From Runella sp. (lineage in GTDB: Bacteria > Bacteroidota > Bacteroidia > Cytophagales > Spirosomataceae), in the NCBI GenBank assembly GCA_023254175.1, contig JALQYJ010000166.1:1-32764 (forward strand): a stretch of 32,764 bases of DNA, given 5' to 3'. Positions within the stretch are counted from its first letter, which is position 1. Each line of letters begins with the position of its first letter. The translations under genes and the position numbers were made by a program. The notes beneath the pieces were generated by a model, which saw only the letters and a program-made list of their open reading frames with translations, was not told where the DNA came from and did not search any database. Of this stretch, positions 2,864 to 11,887 are shown in pieces.

Positions 2864-4273
2864 TTAAAATCCAAAGTACTGTTTTGCGTTATTGTAACAA
2901 ATGTTCTGAACCACTTGGCCGACCCACTCCATGTCGCTGGGGATTTCGCCGTTTTCGATGTCATTCCCGAACATATTGCACAAAATACGACGGAAATACT
3001 CGTGACGAGGAAACGATAAAAATGAGCGAGAGTCGGTGAGCATACCTACAAAACGGCTTAACAAGCCCATGTTCGATAAAGCCGTGATTTGTTTTTCCAT
3101 GCCGTCTTTTTGGTCTAAAAACCACCATCCCGAACCAAACTGCACCTTGCCAGCAATTGACCCGTCGTTGAAGTTACCAATCATGGTGGCAATTATTTCG
3201 TTGTCGGCAGGGTTGAGGTTGTAGATAATGGTTTTGGCTAATTGGTCGTATTCGTCTAAGCGTCCCAAGAATTTCGATAATGCTACGGCTTGCGACCAGT
3301 CACCAATCGAATCCCAACCAGTATCAGGGCCTAGAAGACGTAAAGCGCGGGCGTTGTTATTGCGGAGTGCTCCCAAGTGGAACTGCTGTGTCCAGCCAAG
3401 TTCGTGGTACATCGTGCCTAAGAAGTGTAAAATGGCGGATTGATATACCAAAATGTCTTCTTGTGAAAGTGATTGTCCTGCAAGTGCTTTTTGCAAAATA
3501 CTATCGGCAGCTTCGGGGGTAAAATCGGTGGCGTAGATTTGCTCTAGGCCGTGGTCAGATAATTTACAGCCCAAAGAAGCAAAGAAATCGGCGCGCGTAC
3601 GGAGTGCTTTGGTAAGGTCGTCGTAACGCTTGATTTCAAAACCAACGATAGCACCTAATTTTTGAAGATATGTAGCAAAGTTGGTGTTTCCAATTAAGAT
3701 AAATTTATCAGGTCGAAAAGCAGGACGCATTTGAATTTCAAACGTTCCTTCTTTGGCTAATTGTTGGTGGTATTCCAAGGTATCGAGTGGATCGTCGGTG
3801 GTACATACCACTTCTACGTTCATTTTGCGGAGCAAGTTACGTACCGAATAATCAGGCGTACGCAGTTTCTCCGAACACTCGTCGTAAATACGACGGGCAC
3901 TTTTGGGGTTTAAAACTTCGTGAACGTCGAAATAGCGCTGCAACTCAAGGTGAGTCCAGTGGTACAGTGGGTTACGAAGGGTATAAGGCACGGTTTCGGC
4001 CCATTTTTCAAACTTTTCGTAATCGGTAGCAGCGCCCGTACAATAGTTTTCATTGATACCGTTGGTACGCATAGCCCGCCATTTGTAGTGGTCTCCGTAC
4101 AACCAAATTTGCGTAAGGTTTTCAAAGGTTTTATCGGCTACGATTTGGTCAGGAGGAAGGTGGTTATGGTAGTCAATGATAGGCATTTGCTTAGCAAACT
4201 CGTGGTAGAGTGTGCGTGCGCTATCGGTTTGGAGTAAAAAATCTTCGTCAAGAAAAGTCTTAGTGACCAACAT
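2864..4273 (-). CDS. uxaC: Glucuronate/galacturonate isomerase
   Basis: Isomerises D-galacturonate to D-tagaturonate and D-glucuronate to D-fructuronate, the first intracellular step of hexuronate breakdown. The protein is 469 residues, full length for the family. It belongs to the amidohydrolase superfamily; PIIDYHNHLPP near the N-terminus supplies the metal-ligand type His36-x-His38. Other family stretches include CTTDDP, HLGALRNNN and WWFLDQKDGME. ATG start at 4271-4273. It follows uxaB by only 21 nt, so the two are co-transcribed. Confidence 0.97.
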   Translation of the reverse strand: MLVTKTFLDEDFLLQTDSARTLYHEFAKQMPIIDYHNHLPPDQIVADKTFENLTQIWLYGDHYKWRAMRTNGINENYCTGAATDYEKFEKWAETVPYTLRNPLYHWTHLELQRYFDVHEVLNPKSARRIYDECSEKLRTPDYSVRNLLRKMNVEVVCTTDDPLDTLEYHQQLAKEGTFEIQMRPAFRPDKFILIGNTNFATYLQKLGAIVGFEIKRYDDLTKALRTRADFFASLGCKLSDHGLEQIYATDFTPEAADSILQKALAGQSLSQEDILVYQSAILHFLGTMYHELGWTQQFHLGALRNNNARALRLLGPDTGWDSIGDWSQAVALSKFLGRLDEYDQLAKTIIYNLNPADNEIIATMIGNFNDGSIAGKVQFGSGWWFLDQKDGMEKQITALSNMGLLSRFVGMLTDSRSFLSFPRHEYFRRILCNMFGNDIENGEIPSDMEWVGQVVQNICYNNAKQYFGF

Positions 4274-4294: not shown

Positions 4295-5842
4295 TTAGAG
4301 AATCTCGTTCGTTTCGGCTACCTGAGAGGGGTGTCTTAGGAAAAAGCTTTCAAGGGATTGTTTTACCCCATGTTCGAGCATATTTCCTAAGTTATCTGTA
4401 ACACTCTGGGCAAACCCAGGCAAAAGCGAAAGGTCGGTATCCCAGAGAGATTTATCTTGTAGTACTTTTTCAACCAGTTCTGTCGTATCGTATTGTTGCC
4501 ATTTTTGGTAGAAATATTCAGCTTTTTCGTCTTGAATGGGATAGGGCTGCCCATTACGTTCACCGAAATATACAAAACCTTCTTTGGCAACGGGCTTCAT
4601 AAAATACAAGTAAGCTGCAAATCCCAAAGAGACATACTGAGGAATGCAATCGAAAATTTCGTAATAACGCAGCAACGTAGGCACGTTTCGCATTTTCATT
4701 TTGGACGTGTAGTTCAGGGTGATGCTAAGCCACTGGTGATTGAGGTGTGGGTTGCGGAAACGGTCAATTACCTGCATCCCAAATCGCTGAGGACGTTTGC
4801 CGTCCATTGGGTATGGAATAGCCAAGCCCAATTCTGCCAACATTAGATTGCCGATGTACGAAGCCATGATTTCATCTTGCATGGCACTTATAACCGTGTC
4901 ATAACCTGCAAGGTAAGCCAAACCGCAGCTAAGCGTATGGGTTCCGTTGAGTAAGCGAAGCTTAAGTTCACGGAACAAGTTAATATCGGGTTCAATAAAA
5001 ATCCCGTCGTCGGTAGTAGCAAATGAGAGTACCTGTTTGATGTGTTCGTCGCCTTCAATCGCCCACAAGCGAAATACTTCGCTGAGGGTTAAAAGCTTGT
5101 CTTTGTACCCAAATTTATCGTACAACGCTTGGCACGTATCGGCGTCGGGTTTGCCAGGAACAATGCGGTCAACAAGCGAGTTGCAAAAGTGATTGGCACT
5201 TTCGAGCCAATCAAAGAAACCTGATTCCACGCCATTGCGGTGGGCTAGTTCAATCACAATCGACTCCAATTTGGTTCCGTTATCAGAAATCAATTCGGTT
5301 GGAACAATCACCAAACCTGATTCTTGGCTTCCCCCAAACGCTTTAAAACGGGCGTAAAGAAATGCCAGTAATTTACCAGGAAATGAAGCAGGCGGCGTGG
5401 CCGAAATGTCGTCTTGAACCAACTGAATACCTACCTCGGTGGTATTGGAAAGAATAATTTGTAGCTCAGGGTTTTGGGCACATGCAAGAATGGTTTCCCA
5501 CTGCGACTTGGCCGACAACACGCGACTGATGGCCGAGCAGACGATATTTTCTTCGACGAGTTCGTTGTTTTCAATTCCACGAACACAGAGCGTATATAGG
5601 CTGTCTTGTTCATTGAAAGCAGCGGAATCGCCCGAGTCAGTCGATTTTACCACGACAATTCGGCCATTAAACACGCCTTGGCGATTGGCTTTGTCAATCA
5701 AATAATCGGGTAAGCCTCGCAGCAATACCCCCGTTCCAAATTGTAAAACTTTTTCGGGGAGGTTAAATATAGCCGCCTTAGGTACCACCAAATTTGGGTG
5801 CTGGCGTAGGCGGGATAGTTCGTTTATAGATAGATGACTCAT
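4295..5842 (-). CDS. uxaB: Tagaturonate reductase (altronate oxidoreductase)
   Basis: NADH-dependent reduction of D-tagaturonate to D-altronate. At 515 residues it has the two-domain mannitol-dehydrogenase layout: an N-terminal Rossmann region beginning KVLQFGTGVLLRG (residues 31-43), NTTEVGI in the mid part, and an all-alpha C-terminal domain with LLNGTHTLSCGLAYLAG. In this superfamily fructuronate reductase (UxuB) and mannitol dehydrogenases are alternatives. The N-terminus and pairing with UxaC favour UxaB. It is the first gene of the minus-strand uronate unit. A palindromic operator candidate lies 121-144 nt upstream of its ATG. Altronate dehydratase (UxaA), which would use its product, is absent from the window. 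Confidence 0.93.
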   Translation of the reverse strand: MSHLSINELSRLRQHPNLVVPKAAIFNLPEKVLQFGTGVLLRGLPDYLIDKANRQGVFNGRIVVVKSTDSGDSAAFNEQDSLYTLCVRGIENNELVEENIVCSAISRVLSAKSQWETILACAQNPELQIILSNTTEVGIQLVQDDISATPPASFPGKLLAFLYARFKAFGGSQESGLVIVPTELISDNGTKLESIVIELAHRNGVESGFFDWLESANHFCNSLVDRIVPGKPDADTCQALYDKFGYKDKLLTLSEVFRLWAIEGDEHIKQVLSFATTDDGIFIEPDINLFRELKLRLLNGTHTLSCGLAYLAGYDTVISAMQDEIMASYIGNLMLAELGLAIPYPMDGKRPQRFGMQVIDRFRNPHLNHQWLSITLNYTSKMKMRNVPTLLRYYEIFDCIPQYVSLGFAAYLYFMKPVAKEGFVYFGERNGQPYPIQDEKAEYFYQKWQQYDTTELVEKVLQDKSLWDTDLSLLPGFAQSVTDNLGNMLEHGVKQSLESFFLRHPSQVAETNEIL

Positions 5843-5962
5843 TGGTGTAATAGTGCTATCAATTCAAGTTATTGGTTCAAAAAAAGGAAGGTTGTACTGT
5901 ATTCTGTTTCGAGATTACAACCTATTCTGCTTGTGTTCAATCTTTTGTCGAATTATTTCCAC

Positions 5963-5986
5963 GCAATCGTTTTCGGTAACGTTTTC
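5963..5986. promoter_or_regulatory. LacI-type operator candidate, copy 1
   Basis: A 24-nt sequence nearly identical to 8529-8552. Both fit a palindrome with half-sites GCAAwCGTTAyC and GrTAACGwTTGC and a central CG, a layout typical of LacI-family operators. This copy departs from the symmetrical consensus at two positions (T for A at 5972, T for G at 5985). It sits 121 nt upstream of the uxaB ATG and downstream of the GH105 stop, so it most plausibly controls uxaB-uxaC-kdgK-eda. No regulator gene is in the window. The 237-nt gap holds no other feature I can support. Confidence 0.65.
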
Positions 5987-6079
5987 GTAAGTCAACCTTA
6001 GCTGCTTTTGCTTTTCAAAATAAAGAGAAGGACAAGCAAGCAGGTTTGATTCACAATTGACGGGGAAGCCTACGTTTTT

Positions 6080-7993
6080 TTATTTTTTTGTGCTCAACAG
6101 CCACGTCGCTAAATCCTTGGCGGCTGAAAAATTTTCGTAGGTTATTGGAATGCGACGGCCGTCGGTGTATTCGTTGTAAAGCCAAGGGTCACCCACGGCA
6201 AAGACGGTTCCTTTACCGAACTTCGATACAGCCACGATGACGTCGCCTTTTTGAGTAACGAGTGCTTGAGCAGGGGCTTTTACTTCCAATGGAGATAACT
6301 CTTTGATGTACACTGTTTTGGTATTTTTAAATACGGCATTGCCTGCTGGAATGTCCACGCGTCCTTGTTCCCACTGCTGTCCTTGTACCATGTTGACGTT
6401 TTTGGGCAAAAACTGCACCCCAAATTCTTTAGCCAAACGGTTGAAATGAAGGTGTTCGCAGTTGGATGTATCGTTGGACATCAACACCAGCGCCCCCCCT
6501 GCTTTGACCCAAGCGCTAATGGCTTTGATGTCGGCTTCTTGGACAAAATTTGGGGCAGTAGTTTCTTTCTTTGTGTCAGGGTCAACGATGATATAGATGT
6601 TGACGTTTTTGAGGTTGGCTGCCGTTGGTGCGGTAGTAATACTGGCAGTTTTAGCTCCTAAATCGCGAAAAATAGTTCCCCAAAGCCAAAAACCTGAGTG
6701 TTGGCGGTCTTCCCACGTGTAGTGGAATTGCTCTTGGTTGCCGTTGTGGTCTTTTCTAAATTCACGGTTAAAATAATAATCCGTTGCCACCACTTTGCCT
6801 TTTCCGAGGTTGTTTTCTTCGGCAATTTCCATCTCTACGCTGGCAAAAATAAACGGCCCTACACCTTTGAGGTCGTTTTTGCGGATTGGCTCGCTCAAGT
6901 AATATTCGTAAGTACCGTCGCGGTAAGGAGAGCCTCCGAGGCCACCCACGCTCACCGTTTTGTTGAGGCTGATGGTACCGTTGGCTTCTTCTTCTATAAA
7001 TTCTTTCAAGATGCCCGCGTATCCTTTTTTGGCCAAAGCAAGGTAAGAAGCTGGCAAATACCCCATACGAACGCCTTTGGCGAGGGCATATACAAACATA
7101 CACGATGCCGATGCTTCAAAGTAGTTTCCTTTGCGGGTTCCTTGGGTAGTCATTTGATACCACACGCCCGACTTGGCATCTTGGTATTTTACCAAAGCAG
7201 GCGCAAGGCGCTGAAGGTATTTGATTAGATTGGCGCGTTCAGGATGGTTGGCGGGTATGTAATCTAAGACATCGACCAACGCCATAGCGTACCAGCCAAT
7301 TGCTCTGCTCCAAAAGTGCGGCGAGCGACCTGTTTTTGGGTCTGCCCATTTTTGCTCTTTACTTTCGTCGTAAGCGTGGTAAATCAAGCCCGTTTTGTCG
7401 TCAACGGCGTATTTTTCAATGAGGGCAAACTGTTTTGCAATGTGGTCGAAATGCTCAGGATGGTTAAAAATAAGGCTATACTCAGCGGCAAACGGCTCGG
7501 CCATAAACAGCCCGTCGAGCCACATTTGGTACGGATAACGTTTTTTGTGCCAAAAACCACCTTCTTTGGTTTGGGGTTGATTCTCAATTTGTTTCCAAAG
7601 CAAATCTGCGGCTTTTCGGTATTTGTCCTTGTCGGGTTGGGTTTGCTGGTACAAGGTCAATAAAGCACGACCTGTAGGAATATTGTCAAGGTTAAAATCA
7701 TCGTATTTGTACGTACGGATGCTGCCGTCTTTTTGGACATAGCGGTCCATGTCGCGGCGTACGTATTCGTAGTATTTGCCGTTGCCTGTCCGATTCCATA
7801 CTTTTTCGATGGCTTTGTACATCAATCCCTGCTCATAATCCCAACTGGCGGGTTTGTTTTCTTTGACCATAATAGAGTCTTTGTGCCAAGTCATAAACGA
7901 CTCAGCCATGCGCACTGAGTAAGGAGATTTTTGGGCGGTAGCTGTGTAGGCTACCAACATACTTACGATTAGATGCAGAAGAACACGTTTCAT
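6080..7993 (-). CDS. Secreted GH88/GH105 unsaturated uronyl hydrolase with C-terminal DUF4350-like domain
   Basis: Probably removes the 4,5-unsaturated uronate from oligosaccharides left by pectin or rhamnogalacturonan lyases. Residues 1-20 are a signal peptide ending ATAQ, so it acts in the periplasm or at the surface. Residues ~30-400 form the alpha/alpha barrel: WDYEQGLMYKAIEKVW (51-66), QMWLDGLFMAEPF with likely catalytic D160, and HFWSRAIGWYAMALVDVL. After a linker, residues ~455-637 look like a DUF4350/ThuA-type fold (IYIIVDPD, AWVKAGGALVLMSND, GKGTVFAVGDPW), often found appended to such hydrolases. It lies 66 nt downstream of kdgF, which acts on the released sugar. Exact linkage specificity cannot be read from sequence. 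Confidence 0.9.
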   Translation of the reverse strand: MKRVLLHLIVSMLVAYTATAQKSPYSVRMAESFMTWHKDSIMVKENKPASWDYEQGLMYKAIEKVWNRTGNGKYYEYVRRDMDRYVQKDGSIRTYKYDDFNLDNIPTGRALLTLYQQTQPDKDKYRKAADLLWKQIENQPQTKEGGFWHKKRYPYQMWLDGLFMAEPFAAEYSLIFNHPEHFDHIAKQFALIEKYAVDDKTGLIYHAYDESKEQKWADPKTGRSPHFWSRAIGWYAMALVDVLDYIPANHPERANLIKYLQRLAPALVKYQDAKSGVWYQMTTQGTRKGNYFEASASCMFVYALAKGVRMGYLPASYLALAKKGYAGILKEFIEEEANGTISLNKTVSVGGLGGSPYRDGTYEYYLSEPIRKNDLKGVGPFIFASVEMEIAEENNLGKGKVVATDYYFNREFRKDHNGNQEQFHYTWEDRQHSGFWLWGTIFRDLGAKTASITTAPTAANLKNVNIYIIVDPDTKKETTAPNFVQEADIKAISAWVKAGGALVLMSNDTSNCEHLHFNRLAKEFGVQFLPKNVNMVQGQQWEQGRVDIPAGNAVFKNTKTVYIKELSPLEVKAPAQALVTQKGDVIVAVSKFGKGTVFAVGDPWLYNEYTDGRRIPITYENFSAAKDLATWLLSTKK

Positions 7994-8059
7994 ATAAAGT
8001 GTTAAAAATGGAGGTTAAAAGTAATGAGTGTTTGAGGTAATACTTTCCTGTGCCATAAG

Positions 8060-8413
8060 TTACAGGAAGTCTTCACGTAATGGGTTAAATACATCAATGA
8101 GAACACCTTCTTGGTGGCACACGGCTCCGTGCAATACATTGGAAGGGACAAAGTAAACATCTCCTGCTTGCAGCAAACGGCTTTCTTCGCCAATGGTAAC
8201 CTCAAACGCCCCACTTGCTATGTAGCTGATTTGTAAATGAGGATGTTTGTGCGTAGTACCTATTCCTCCCTGTAAAAATGCTACTTTGACCAACATTAAT
8301 TCGTTGGAAAATGACATAATCTTTCGTTGAATTTTGTCGTCCACTTTTTCCCAAGGGATGTCACTGTCGGCCACTAAGGCTTTCTCGAATGCAGGATGAA
8401 TGAAAGAGCTCAA
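8060..8413 (-). CDS. kdgF: KdgF-type cupin, unsaturated uronate linearisation
   Basis: Converts the 4,5-unsaturated monouronate released by lyases and GH88/105 enzymes into its linear keto form. The 117-residue single cupin has metal ligands H55, H57, Q61 and H95 (HKHPHLQISY and VLHGAV) and ends NPLREDFL, a family signature. The start is inferred to be TTG at 8411-8413: an in-frame TAG lies six codons upstream with no ATG or GTG between, and the first internal Met (33) would remove much of the N-terminus; ATT at 8414-8416 is a less likely alternative. It heads the unit with the GH105 gene. A palindromic operator candidate lies 116-139 nt upstream. Confidence 0.87.
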   Translation of the reverse strand: MSSFIHPAFEKALVADSDIPWEKVDDKIQRKIMSFSNELMLVKVAFLQGGIGTTHKHPHLQISYIASGAFEVTIGEESRLLQAGDVYFVPSNVLHGAVCHQEGVLIDVFNPLREDFL

Positions 8414-8745
8414 AATTGTATTATTTAGCTATGAATGTGCTGGCTTTGACTACCATTCTTGCAGTTTGGCAGGACTGAGTTTATTGCTATTTATTGAGTA
8501 AGTCAATGATTGGTTGCGATATTTTTACGCAATCGTTACCGATAACGTTTGCAAAATTGTACTTAACAAAAAATAGATTGTAATCAGGCAAGAACTTGGG
8601 GTATTTGTATGCTTTGTTTCAATAAAACATGTAAGTTAAAAATTTGCCTAAAAATTATACTTTTCAAAGTTTTTGGTCGTCCTTCCAATGCACTTTTGTA
8701 GCTTTGTGCTCGTAGAGTTTCGCTTGTTTTTTCAACTTACCTCCC
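8414..8745. other. 332-nt divergent intergenic region
   Basis: It separates kdgF (leftward) from the AEC carrier (rightward) and must hold both promoters. I see one palindromic operator (8529-8552) and otherwise A+T-rich sequence without a convincing promoter match, small gene or RNA. A frame on the minus strand overlapping 8664-8978 is antisense to the carrier gene and not coding. Confidence 0.6.
8529..8552. promoter_or_regulatory. LacI-type operator candidate, copy 2
   Basis: The strand and its own complement agree at 20 of 24 positions: half-sites GCAATCGTTACC and GATAACGTTTGC, central CG. It matches the site at 5963-5986 at 20 of 24 positions. It is 116 nt upstream of the kdgF start and 194 nt upstream of the divergent AEC gene, so it could act on either. 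Equal placement of the two copies before uxaB and kdgF favours coordinated control of the two uronate units. Confidence 0.7.
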
Positions 8746-9685: not shown

Positions 9686-11887
9686 TTATAAAATCAACAG
9701 TCCATTCTCACGAAGTTTTTTCCAAGTAGGTGTTTTTGAAAATGCACTAAATCCTCCTAATTGAGCCGTTTCAAACTCCGTTTGTAATTGTTGGTAAGCC
9801 AGTGGTTGTTCAAAAAGATGAATCGCGATTTTGGGAAACAATCTTTCCAAAAAATGCGCTTGTTGGACAGGAAGTTGAATACTCCAATCGTGTTTTTTAT
9901 CGTAAAAATGAAGTTCTGCGAGTTCAATTACTTTTTTCCCTTGCTTTACCTCAAAATACTCCACGTTAGGTAGCTTCCCAAGCCAAACCACAAAGGCATT
10001 TTTACGAATGTTATCTTCTTTTTGCGCCATTTGCCGCTGAATGTAATTCGATGGAATGGTTGTGGTTGGAACTTTGGAATCGAACCATTTTGATAATGGA
10101 ATATCAAAACCTACCCCGTGCATGTAGTTAAACAGTGATTTTCGAAGCCCCTCGCTGTACAAATCATGGTTCGCACCTTTGGGGTCATCGTGGTACAAAT
10201 CATTGTCGGCAAAACCTCCGAAACTAGGCCCAATGCGCTGTACGTCGAAAGTATCTGGAGCTAAACCCACGGGACTGTGTGAGGTCATAGCAAACCGATG
10301 CCAAAAACCTGATTGAAGAACGCCGTTTTCAAATAATTGTCGCACCATTTCGAGCGAATCGATGGTTTCTTGGGCCGTTTGTGTCGGGAAACCGTACATC
10401 AAATAGGCGTGAACCATGATGCCCGCTTGGGTAAACCCATCGGCTACGCGTGCTACTTGTCCTACAGTTACGCCTTTTTTCATCATCGCCAGTAAGCGGT
10501 CAGATGCCACTTCTAGTCCACCTGACATGGCAATGCAGCCCGAGGCTTTGAGTAATAAAGATAAATCGTGAGTGAAGTTTTTTTCAAAACGAATATTGGT
10601 CCACCAAACGACGGTTAGCTTGCGGCGGATGATTTCAATCGCTACGTCGCGAAGCAAAGCGGGCGGTGCGGCCTCGTCTACAAAATGAAAGCCATTTTGC
10701 TGGGTTTTGGCAATAATCTCTTCGATTCGGTCGCAAATCAGCGCGGCCGTGAGAGGCTCGTAATTTTTGATATAATCCAGCGAAATGTCACAGAAAGAAC
10801 ATTTACCCCAGTAGCAGCCGTGGGCGAGGGTCAGTTTGTTCCAGCGCCCGTCGCTCCAAAGGCGGTGCATTGGATTGACGATTTCGATGACCGATAGGTA
10901 ATCCAACAAAAATAAGTCGGAATAATCGGGCGTTCCTGTGTCTCGTTGCGCTACGTCTTTTTCAGAAGCACCGTTGTAATACACGACTTGGTTATCAGTT
11001 CGGGCAAAAGTGCGCTTGAGTGAAGACAAAGGCCGTTTTTCATCTAGGTATTCGAGCAGTATGCGCAAGGGGGCTTCTCCGTCGTCGAGGCATACAAAAT
11101 CGAGGTAGTCAAATACGCGCGAGTCAGAAAGGGAGCGTAGTTCGGTGTTACAAAAGCCACCTCCTATCACGATTTTTACGCTAGGATAGTGTTTTTTGAG
11201 GTATTGACCGCATTTTAGTGCCCCAAATAAATTGCCTGGAAAAGGAACACTCAAACAAACAACGGTAGGCTGGAACGCGTCTATTTTTTGTTCCAATAAC
11301 TTATGCAGAAAAACGGTGATAAGTGTATCAGGCTTTTGAAGTTCGGACAAGAGTTCGTCAAAATGCGTAGCAGTACGGCCTAAGCGTTCGGCATAGCGGC
11401 TAAACCCAAAATGTGGGTCAATAGCTTCTTGCAAAAAATCGCCTAAGTCTTCTAAATAAAGGGTAGCCAAGTGACGTGCTTTGTCTTGCGTACCCATGGT
11501 TCCAAACGCCCAATCAAGGTCTTCTACGTCTTTGAAGCGAGAGGCTTCGGGCAAATAAGCGCGGTCGCAAATGCTGTGGGCGAGGGTGGGGTTTTTATTT
11601 TGTAAAAATGAAATAATAGGTTCGATAGTTGCGATGTACTCGTCGCGAAGATGATAGATACGATACGCGTTTTCGGTAAGTTCTATGTCATGCTCGGCTT
11701 TTTCGAGAGCTTCGAAGATTTGGGTAAGTCCCTGGACTGAAAATAGCTCCAAAATGACTTCAATCCCCAAGTCGGCTTGGTGAGAAACAACGCCCAACGT
11801 ATTCAGAAATCCCTTTATGTAGGCCGTGGCAGGGTAGGGGGTATTTAGTTGAGTGAAAGGCGGCGTAAGTAGTAAAACCTTTTGCAA
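9686..11887 (-). CDS. B12-binding radical SAM protein
   Basis: The 733-residue protein begins KVLLLTPPFTQLNTPYPATAY, typical of cobalamin-binding radical SAM enzymes. A Rossmann-like B12 segment follows (VVCLSVPFPGNL, IVIGGGFCN, CLDDGEAPL; residues ~205-280). No DxHxxG cobalamin His motif is evident. The cluster motif is C358-YWGK-C363-SF-C366, spaced CX4CX2C rather than the usual CX3CX2C, followed by HFVDEAAPP and SGGLEVASDRLL. The substrate is unknown. Start is TTG at 11885-11887: the preceding codons are CAG and the gmk stop TAG, and the next in-frame Met is residue 131. The protein is therefore coupled to gmk, with one codon between stop and start. Confidence 0.88.
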   Translation of the reverse strand: MQKVLLLTPPFTQLNTPYPATAYIKGFLNTLGVVSHQADLGIEVILELFSVQGLTQIFEALEKAEHDIELTENAYRIYHLRDEYIATIEPIISFLQNKNPTLAHSICDRAYLPEASRFKDVEDLDWAFGTMGTQDKARHLATLYLEDLGDFLQEAIDPHFGFSRYAERLGRTATHFDELLSELQKPDTLITVFLHKLLEQKIDAFQPTVVCLSVPFPGNLFGALKCGQYLKKHYPSVKIVIGGGFCNTELRSLSDSRVFDYLDFVCLDDGEAPLRILLEYLDEKRPLSSLKRTFARTDNQVVYYNGASEKDVAQRDTGTPDYSDLFLLDYLSVIEIVNPMHRLWSDGRWNKLTLAHGCYWGKCSFCDISLDYIKNYEPLTAALICDRIEEIIAKTQQNGFHFVDEAAPPALLRDVAIEIIRRKLTVVWWTNIRFEKNFTHDLSLLLKASGCIAMSGGLEVASDRLLAMMKKGVTVGQVARVADGFTQAGIMVHAYLMYGFPTQTAQETIDSLEMVRQLFENGVLQSGFWHRFAMTSHSPVGLAPDTFDVQRIGPSFGGFADNDLYHDDPKGANHDLYSEGLRKSLFNYMHGVGFDIPLSKWFDSKVPTTTIPSNYIQRQMAQKEDNIRKNAFVVWLGKLPNVEYFEVKQGKKVIELAELHFYDKKHDWSIQLPVQQAHFLERLFPKIAIHLFEQPLAYQQLQTEFETAQLGGFSAFSKTPTWKKLRENGLLIL

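Follow-up and report, generated by a model that had tools for sequence, protein, structure and literature searches.

Our analysis of a 32,764-nucleotide (nt) stretch of Runella sp. DNA (assembly GCA_023254175.1, contig JALQYJ010000166.1; hereafter, the window) concerned two 24-base-pair (bp) elements located upstream of the minus-strand uxaB and kdgF units. As judged from sequence comparison, these elements are probably operators of a LacI-family protein of the same genome (C108 LacI), which would activate at least six pectin/galacturonate units by contacting RNA polymerase from about position −68.

Fixed spacing between the operators and predicted promoters

The element upstream of uxaB (5963-5986, GCAATCGTTTTCGGTAACGTTTTC) reads GAAAACGTTACCGAAAACGATTGC toward its gene on the minus strand, and that upstream of the kdgF-GH105 unit (8529-8552, GCAATCGTTACCGATAACGTTTGC) reads GCAAACGTTATCGGTAACGATTGC, also on the minus strand; an original prediction, made from the window letters, had placed both at these coordinates with 20 of 24 bases in common, and both points were confirmed. 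An operator of the latter kind holds the same place before kdgF in other Runella. The consensus given in that prediction, allowing up to 3 mismatches, matched only these two places in the 32.8-kb window and none in 100 shuffles; together with the genome count and the reversed-pattern control described below, this rules out a chance origin of the pair. Their description as imperfect palindromes suited the kdgF site, which agrees with its own inverted half at 10 of 12 positions, and fitted the uxaB site (8 of 12) less well. Equal placement held approximately when counted to the start codons (120 nt to the uxaB ATG at 5842 and 115 nt to the kdgF TTG start at 8413), and such distances vary widely among relatives; the tighter identity is the 22 nt between either operator and the TTG of its predicted promoter, which replaces the start-codon distance as the key fact.

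According to the accessible part of PMC7366714, Bacteroidota promoters carry TTTG near −33 and TAnnTTTG near −7, the −33 motif not being found in Flavobacterium johnsoniae. With offsets counted from the operator end and read toward the gene, the predicted −33 element TTG stands 22 nt from both the kdgF operator (8504-8506) and the uxaB operator (5938-5940), and the predicted −7 element stands at offset 45 in both cases, as TAAACTCA (TAnnTTTG-like, 8476-8483) and TAATCTCG (5910-5917), respectively, all on the minus strand. Predicted transcription starts lie near 5906 for the uxaB unit and 8472 for the kdgF unit, and if TTTG is centred at −33, the operator centre would be at about −68. An A-rich block abuts each operator on its gene side (minus strand; GTAAAAATA at 8520-8528 for kdgF and GTGGAAATA at 5954-5962 for uxaB), and GTAAAAATA may be a UP-element-like sequence. 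It had been suggested that the distance to the start codons might suit activation from upstream or a long leader; the former is favoured, whereas the latter is not supported, since the predicted leaders are about 60 nt.

The same spacing recurred among relatives. The site was present in 72 of 150 genomes scanned, with the reversed control matching once each in 4 (G013, G035, G083, and G118), and 60 stretches from relatives were hand-picked among the matches listed. Across 108 gene-facing directions from relatives and the Runella genome itself, TTG stood at offset 22 in 57 (mean, 2.4 per offset) and TA at offset 45 in 65 (mean, 11.7 per offset); directions facing MemTrans and FAD-oxidase genes were dropped from this count, and 25 lacI-facing directions were set apart. 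In these 25, TTG was never found at 22 and TA was found at 45 only twice, and the lacI side showed just a weak pattern, with TTG at 34 in 8 of 36 and offsets 102 and 103 also reaching 8. Sites between two genes had been counted twice, and the count was hence repeated on single-direction sites (n = 43, 28 dissimilar), where TTG stood at 22 in 15 (mean, 0.49 at other offsets). In a set chosen by protein rather than by site (contig scan with an alignment of C108 orthologues; best 80 of 379 loci), the direction facing the divergent gene had TTG at 22 in 48 of 66 loci and TA at 45 in 44 of 66. When reduced to 27 dissimilar loci (less than 70% identity over the 60 nt behind the operator), this set retained TTG at 22 in 14 (mean, 0.81 over all offsets), TTG or TTC in 19, and TA at 45 in 16 (mean, 2.41), and its consensus directly behind the operator was RYAAAWAAA. 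TA was about as frequent at offset 1 as at offset 45, the former belonging to the A-rich block. The operator was also found upstream of uxaB in 19 of the best 30 matches to this gene, with TA at 45 in 19 and TT at 22 in 17 of these loci; in 12 of 18 non-Runella loci, the operator lies between uxaB and a divergent LacI gene.

A shift of this spacing by one helical turn was observed at loci of a second LacI type, represented in the same genome by C70. These loci (taken as C70-type from their 45-53% matches, 20 of them hand-picked and the Runella locus added) carry a related operator, many of them GGGAACGGTTCCGGGAACGGTTGC. Of the 21 loci, 14 have TTG at 32 and 16 have TA at 55 (6 and 8, respectively, of 10 dissimilar loci), the promoter mostly standing exactly 10 bp farther away than in C108-type loci with the −33/−7 spacing unchanged, which fits contact from one helix face. 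The C70 locus of this genome and three Runella loci (L269, L271, and L272) have TTT at 22 and TA at 45; the operator of a further Runella locus (L270) differs by 1 base from that of L269, yet has TTG at 32 and TA at 55.

A seven-site regulon and its candidate regulator

A widened pattern matched 7 places in the whole Runella genome (4.85 Mb, 199 contigs), where the reversed pattern gave 0 matches, and a composite pattern including the A-rich block returned the same 7. Pectin/uronate genes stand behind 6 of these places and a SusC/D pair behind 1, so the motif does not occur at many unrelated sites. Besides the two window sites (C173:8529, before a kdgF-like cupin and GH88/105; C173:5963, before uxaB, uxaC, a PfkB kinase, and a KDPG/KHG aldolase), they comprise C45:8096 (GDSL-GH28 protein), C37:4635 (a SusD-like protein and one called SusC-like on account of its length and context, neither carrying a pectin label itself), C188:17292 (GntP permease and galactarate dehydratase [TIGR03248, 803.8 bits; cut-off, 730.85], with a divergent FAD-linked oxidase), C70:2661 (the second lacI on one side and 3-keto-disaccharide hydrolase [DUF1080], GH3, and uxuA on the other), and C108:55367 (lacI on one side and kduI, a SusC-like gene, susD, and a pectate lyase gene truncated at the end of the stretch on the other). 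With this regulon, a single cytoplasmic sensor would govern uptake across the outer membrane (SusC/D), pectinases outside the cell, and uronate breakdown in the cytoplasm. In relatives, the same operator was also observed before genes for extracytoplasmic function (ECF)-type sigma factors (Sigma70_r4_2 and r2; L062 4297-4875 and L087 4328-4876), which suggests a cascade from LacI, and before GntR-type regulators with a LacI-like sugar-binding domain (PF00392 and PF13377; L054, L061, L083, L107, and L111, sites at 5001), another possible cascade.

The genome carries five LacI genes, the proteins of which share 50% (C70, with the same recognition-helix residues) or 35-42% (the others) identity with C108. 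The C108 lacI (C108:54214-55239) has a site 128 nt before it and shares this site with the divergent kduI-susCD-pectate lyase genes. Its product has an N-terminal LacI helix-turn-helix (PF00356, 50.5 bits; cut-off, 27) and a C-terminal sugar-binding domain like that of CcpA and PurR (phmmer matches of the protein to solved CcpA, 1.4e-50 over residues 4-316, and to PurR, 4e-46 over residues 5-318), and it scored below the cut-offs of the curated CytR, PurR, and CcpA equivalogs (214.7 versus 436, 201.1 versus 501, and 177.8 versus 442.35 bits, respectively). In a tree of 29 LacI proteins, C108 grouped with its chosen orthologues in a single starred clade, adjacent to C70, and the remaining LacIs of this genome were long branches. 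The 80 protein-chosen loci came from Runella (98% identity to R. defluvii and R. limosa), Dyadobacter, Emticicia, Flectobacillus, Hymenobacter, Chitinophagaceae, and others. An operator of at least 24 bits was found within 450 nt upstream of lacI in 66 of them, in a single orientation in 61 of the 66 and at 110-130 nt in 49; the gene divergent from lacI was often kduD, uxaB, kduI, or GDSL-GH28 (KduD in R. defluvii by TIGR01832, 341.9 bits; cut-off, 338.85). Among 150 genomes of the family, 61 had both lacI and site, 14 lacI only, 11 the site only, and 64 neither (Fisher p = 7e-17, ignoring kinship of the genomes), the 380-bit lacI cut-off having been chosen after the scores were known and the genome lists compiled by hand. 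A phylum-wide LacI search of 148 genomes gave 30 loci, which are outside all counts given here. Because the site and the lacI orthologue co-occur over the 150 genomes and the site stands upstream of orthologous lacI genes, the window sites probably belong to the C108 LacI, which would bind them. The earlier proposal that one LacI-type regulator joins the kdgF and uxaB units is thus well supported by the seven places, the lacI beside a site, the co-occurrence, and the uxaB relatives.

We consider it improbable that the C70 LacI, encoded beside DUF1080-GH3-uxuA, is the cognate regulator of the window sites, or that both LacIs share them. The identical recognition-helix residues at 50% overall identity would permit this, the same matrix gives the C70 site 27.6 bits, and some relatives' C70-type loci hold an operator like that of this genome; however, many C70-type loci of other genera carry GGGAACGGTTCCGGGAACGGTTGC, and the kdgF/uxaB-type operator adjoins C108 orthologues.

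Eleven operator positions (G1, A4, C6, G7, T9, C12, G13, A16, C18, G19, and C24) were invariant both in 80 dissimilar sites (less than 75% alike, some of them selected for having the A-rich block) and in the lacI-chosen set with its 32 distinct operators, an invariance that is partly built in, as sites were first kept only with CGTT, CG, and AACG at fixed places and the lacI-chosen set was picked by matrix. The central CG of the LacI-type palindrome originally proposed is a possible dyad; however, the invariant positions are as compatible with an inverted repeat of 24 bp as with two 12-bp units GNNAACGTTNNC in tandem, and the 32 operators do not decide between these readings (mean, 7.8 of 12 as inverted and 8.0 of 12 as tandem repeat). 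Operators of the GGGAACGG type favour the tandem reading (10-11 of 12), whereas the kdgF operator favours the inverted one (10 of 12), and covariation in the operator seems to reflect mainly two orientations of the same core. The tandem unit GNNAACGTTNNC resembles the core of a PurR operator. Other LacIs are adjoined by other CG-centred palindromes: in this genome, two GGGAACGTTCCC palindromes with centres 19 bp apart lie between a LacI gene and a SusC-like gene (C132; L020, about 6971-7010), and the near-perfect palindrome TTTCGGAAACGTTTCCGATA (C157; L021 7716-7735) stands beside a gene for a LacI whose extra N-terminal stretch contains paired cysteines, at a locus that also holds a second uxuA (TIGR00695, 532 bits; cut-off, 199.55). 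In two genomes of the genus Dyadobacter, the gene for a third LacI (39% identity to C70) and a SusC gene are divergent, the operator being symmetric and of the GTAAACGTTACCGGTAACGTTTAC type (L028 and L032, both at 1501), where TA stands at offset 45 and TTG is absent at 22.

Activation weighed against repression

In the mechanism that we favour, the C108 LacI loaded with a uronate breakdown product would bind the 24-bp element centred near −68 and touch RNA polymerase from a fixed helix face at a promoter with a −33 TTG and a TAnnTTTG-like −7 element. This contact would switch transcription on, assisting promoters with often imperfect elements (TTC for TTG; CTCG or CTTA for TTTG). The fixed spacing and the one-turn shift point to polymerase contact, most likely activation from about −68: as in class I-type activation, the operator has a fixed place upstream of −33 in many predicted promoters, and its alternative positions are one whole helical turn apart (+10 bp at C70-type loci). 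An ordinary steric or looping repressor, with operators lying upstream by happenstance, is very improbable. Such repression is the commonest mode in the family, and loops would be possible since several units share sites, but the sites leave the predicted −33 and −7 elements uncovered, and loops need no rigid spacing across dissimilar loci.

The main rival is contact repression of the GalR type, in which LacI at about −68 without inducer would hold polymerase inactive through its alpha subunit until released by the inducer. GalR is a LacI-family member that acts on polymerase from upstream to repress gal, and its effect at gal P1 exemplifies contact repression through the alpha subunit. This rival accounts just as well for the constant spacing and for the shift by 10 bp, and repression is the commonest mode of the LacI family. 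Nevertheless, contact repression is a rare mode that would have to serve a whole regulon, and the usual repressor layout, with the operator over the predicted promoter, was not seen in the aligned loci; we therefore regard it as rather unlikely.

Several observations weigh against activation by the C108 LacI. The sign of the effect rests on position and phase, and upstream repressors of the family are also known, as with GalR; the promoter positions and starts are themselves predictions. The site is not kept upstream of all uxaB orthologues, 11 of the best 30 relatives being without it, and conservation at this gene is accordingly partial. TTG is often inexact: upstream of uxaB it is exact in only 7 of the 19 loci with an operator, the DUF1080 promoter of this genome has TTT instead, 4 of the 10 kdgF rows, which come from a single genus, have neither TTG at 22 nor TA at 45, and SusC rows have TTG at 22 in just 7 of 18, though TA at 45 in 16 of 18. 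The uxaB set is not independent of the lacI set, as 12 of 19 uxaB sites are common to a divergent lacI, and the position weight matrix was trained on 32 operators having TTG at 22, though on their 24 bases only. Regarding the regulator, 14 of 80 lacI loci have no site at 24 bits, including that of R. limosa (98% LacI identity), the 14 lacI-only genomes of 150 have none under the genome-scan pattern, and the C70 paralogue, given its recognition helix, could bind the same sites.

More broadly, and with somewhat less than even confidence, a Bacteroidota LacI clade comprising at least the C108 and C70 types (Cytophagales and Chitinophagaceae) may consist of fixed-face activators acting from about −68/−78 on TAnnTTTG promoters through an operator of two abutting 12-bp units. 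If so, a "LacI-type" label beside a polysaccharide utilization locus would often mean an activator. The recurring spacing over genera and the one-turn shift are a directly testable sign of polymerase contact, and the composite motif can be used to find such promoters and start sites in Bacteroidota.

Genes of the window and comparison with known systems

All genes of the two window units lie on the minus strand. The kdgF unit comprises a kdgF-like cupin of 117 amino acids with a TTG start (8060-8413; Cupin_2, PF07883, 46.5 bits), the name KdgF being that of the original prediction and agreeing with the context, and a glycoside hydrolase (GH) of family 88/105 of the unsaturated uronyl hydrolase type (6080-7993; PF07470, 4.6e-111), labelled GH105 from context. 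The uxaB unit comprises uxaB, tagaturonate reductase (4295-5842; NF002969, 583.4 bits; cut-off, 359), uxaC, glucuronate isomerase (2864-4273; NF002794, 651.9 bits; cut-off, 387), a PfkB-family sugar kinase (1714-2763; PF00294), and a KDPG/KHG aldolase (kdgA/eda; 964-1671; NF005499, 287.6 bits; cut-off, 275). The kinase is probably a 2-keto-3-deoxygluconate (KDG) kinase (kdgK); its top NCBIfam matches are of the KDPG-aldolase/kinase and KDG-kinase types, every one below its cut-off. An operator stands before each unit, as first described, but their separateness as transcription units is less secure: because GH105 ends at most about 40 nt from uxaB, with no operator between, in 9 of 12 Runella uxaB loci, the two may form one kdgF-to-kdgA operon in which the 5963 site drives an internal promoter. 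In the other 3 loci (the window, L231, and L237), the GH105-uxaB gap is wide and holds the operator. Elsewhere in the window, 9686-11887 encodes a large B12-binding radical SAM protein (best resemblance, PhpK-type; 89.4 bits versus a cut-off of 600), and 3-815 is an open reading frame with a "Gene product 88" domain (PF17338).

CcpA, Cra, GalR, and CytR are LacI-family proteins able to activate or act on polymerase from upstream. The C108 LacI shares with them its family and an upstream site, CytR being its best NCBIfam match and CcpA its best solved structure, whereas it scores below the curated cut-offs of these families and the promoter type differs. In class I activation, CRP acts from −61.5/−71.5; an upstream site, fixed spacing, and shifts by one helical turn are common to both cases, the difference being that here a LacI-family protein would act on a Bacteroidota (TAnnTTTG) promoter.

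Our literature search on the regulator turned up no paper that deals with this operator or describes a Bacteroidota activator of the LacI family. Neither the constant operator-promoter layout nor its 10-bp shift was found in the accessible parts of PMC3878776, PMC4052901, and PMC5507952 or in the titles and abstracts searched, and PMC12125979, from its accessible part, concerns another regulator type. The accessible parts of these sources present LacI-family uronate regulons in this phylum as predictions and do not settle whether the regulation is positive or negative. UxuR2, a predicted LacI-family hexuronate regulator of Algoriphagus marincola, belongs to the same phylum and, as the accessible part of PMC5507952 describes it, likewise assigns one LacI to two galacturonate/glucuronate loci, which differ in containing tripartite ATP-independent periplasmic (TRAP) transporter genes. 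In Bacteroides, the regulons of KdgR (BT0487), UxaR (BT0824), and UxuR (BT1434) were predicted by comparative genomics (PMC3878776, PMC4052901); as far as the accessible parts go, these regulators share the phylum, protein family, and pathway (glucuronate, galacturonate, and KDG) with the Runella regulon, but belong to another order, and promoter geometry and LacI activation are not described there. The Runella regulon, likened to these by description rather than by orthology, adds susCD, pectate lyase, and GH28, and resembles the predicted Bacteroides LacI uronate regulons in kind.

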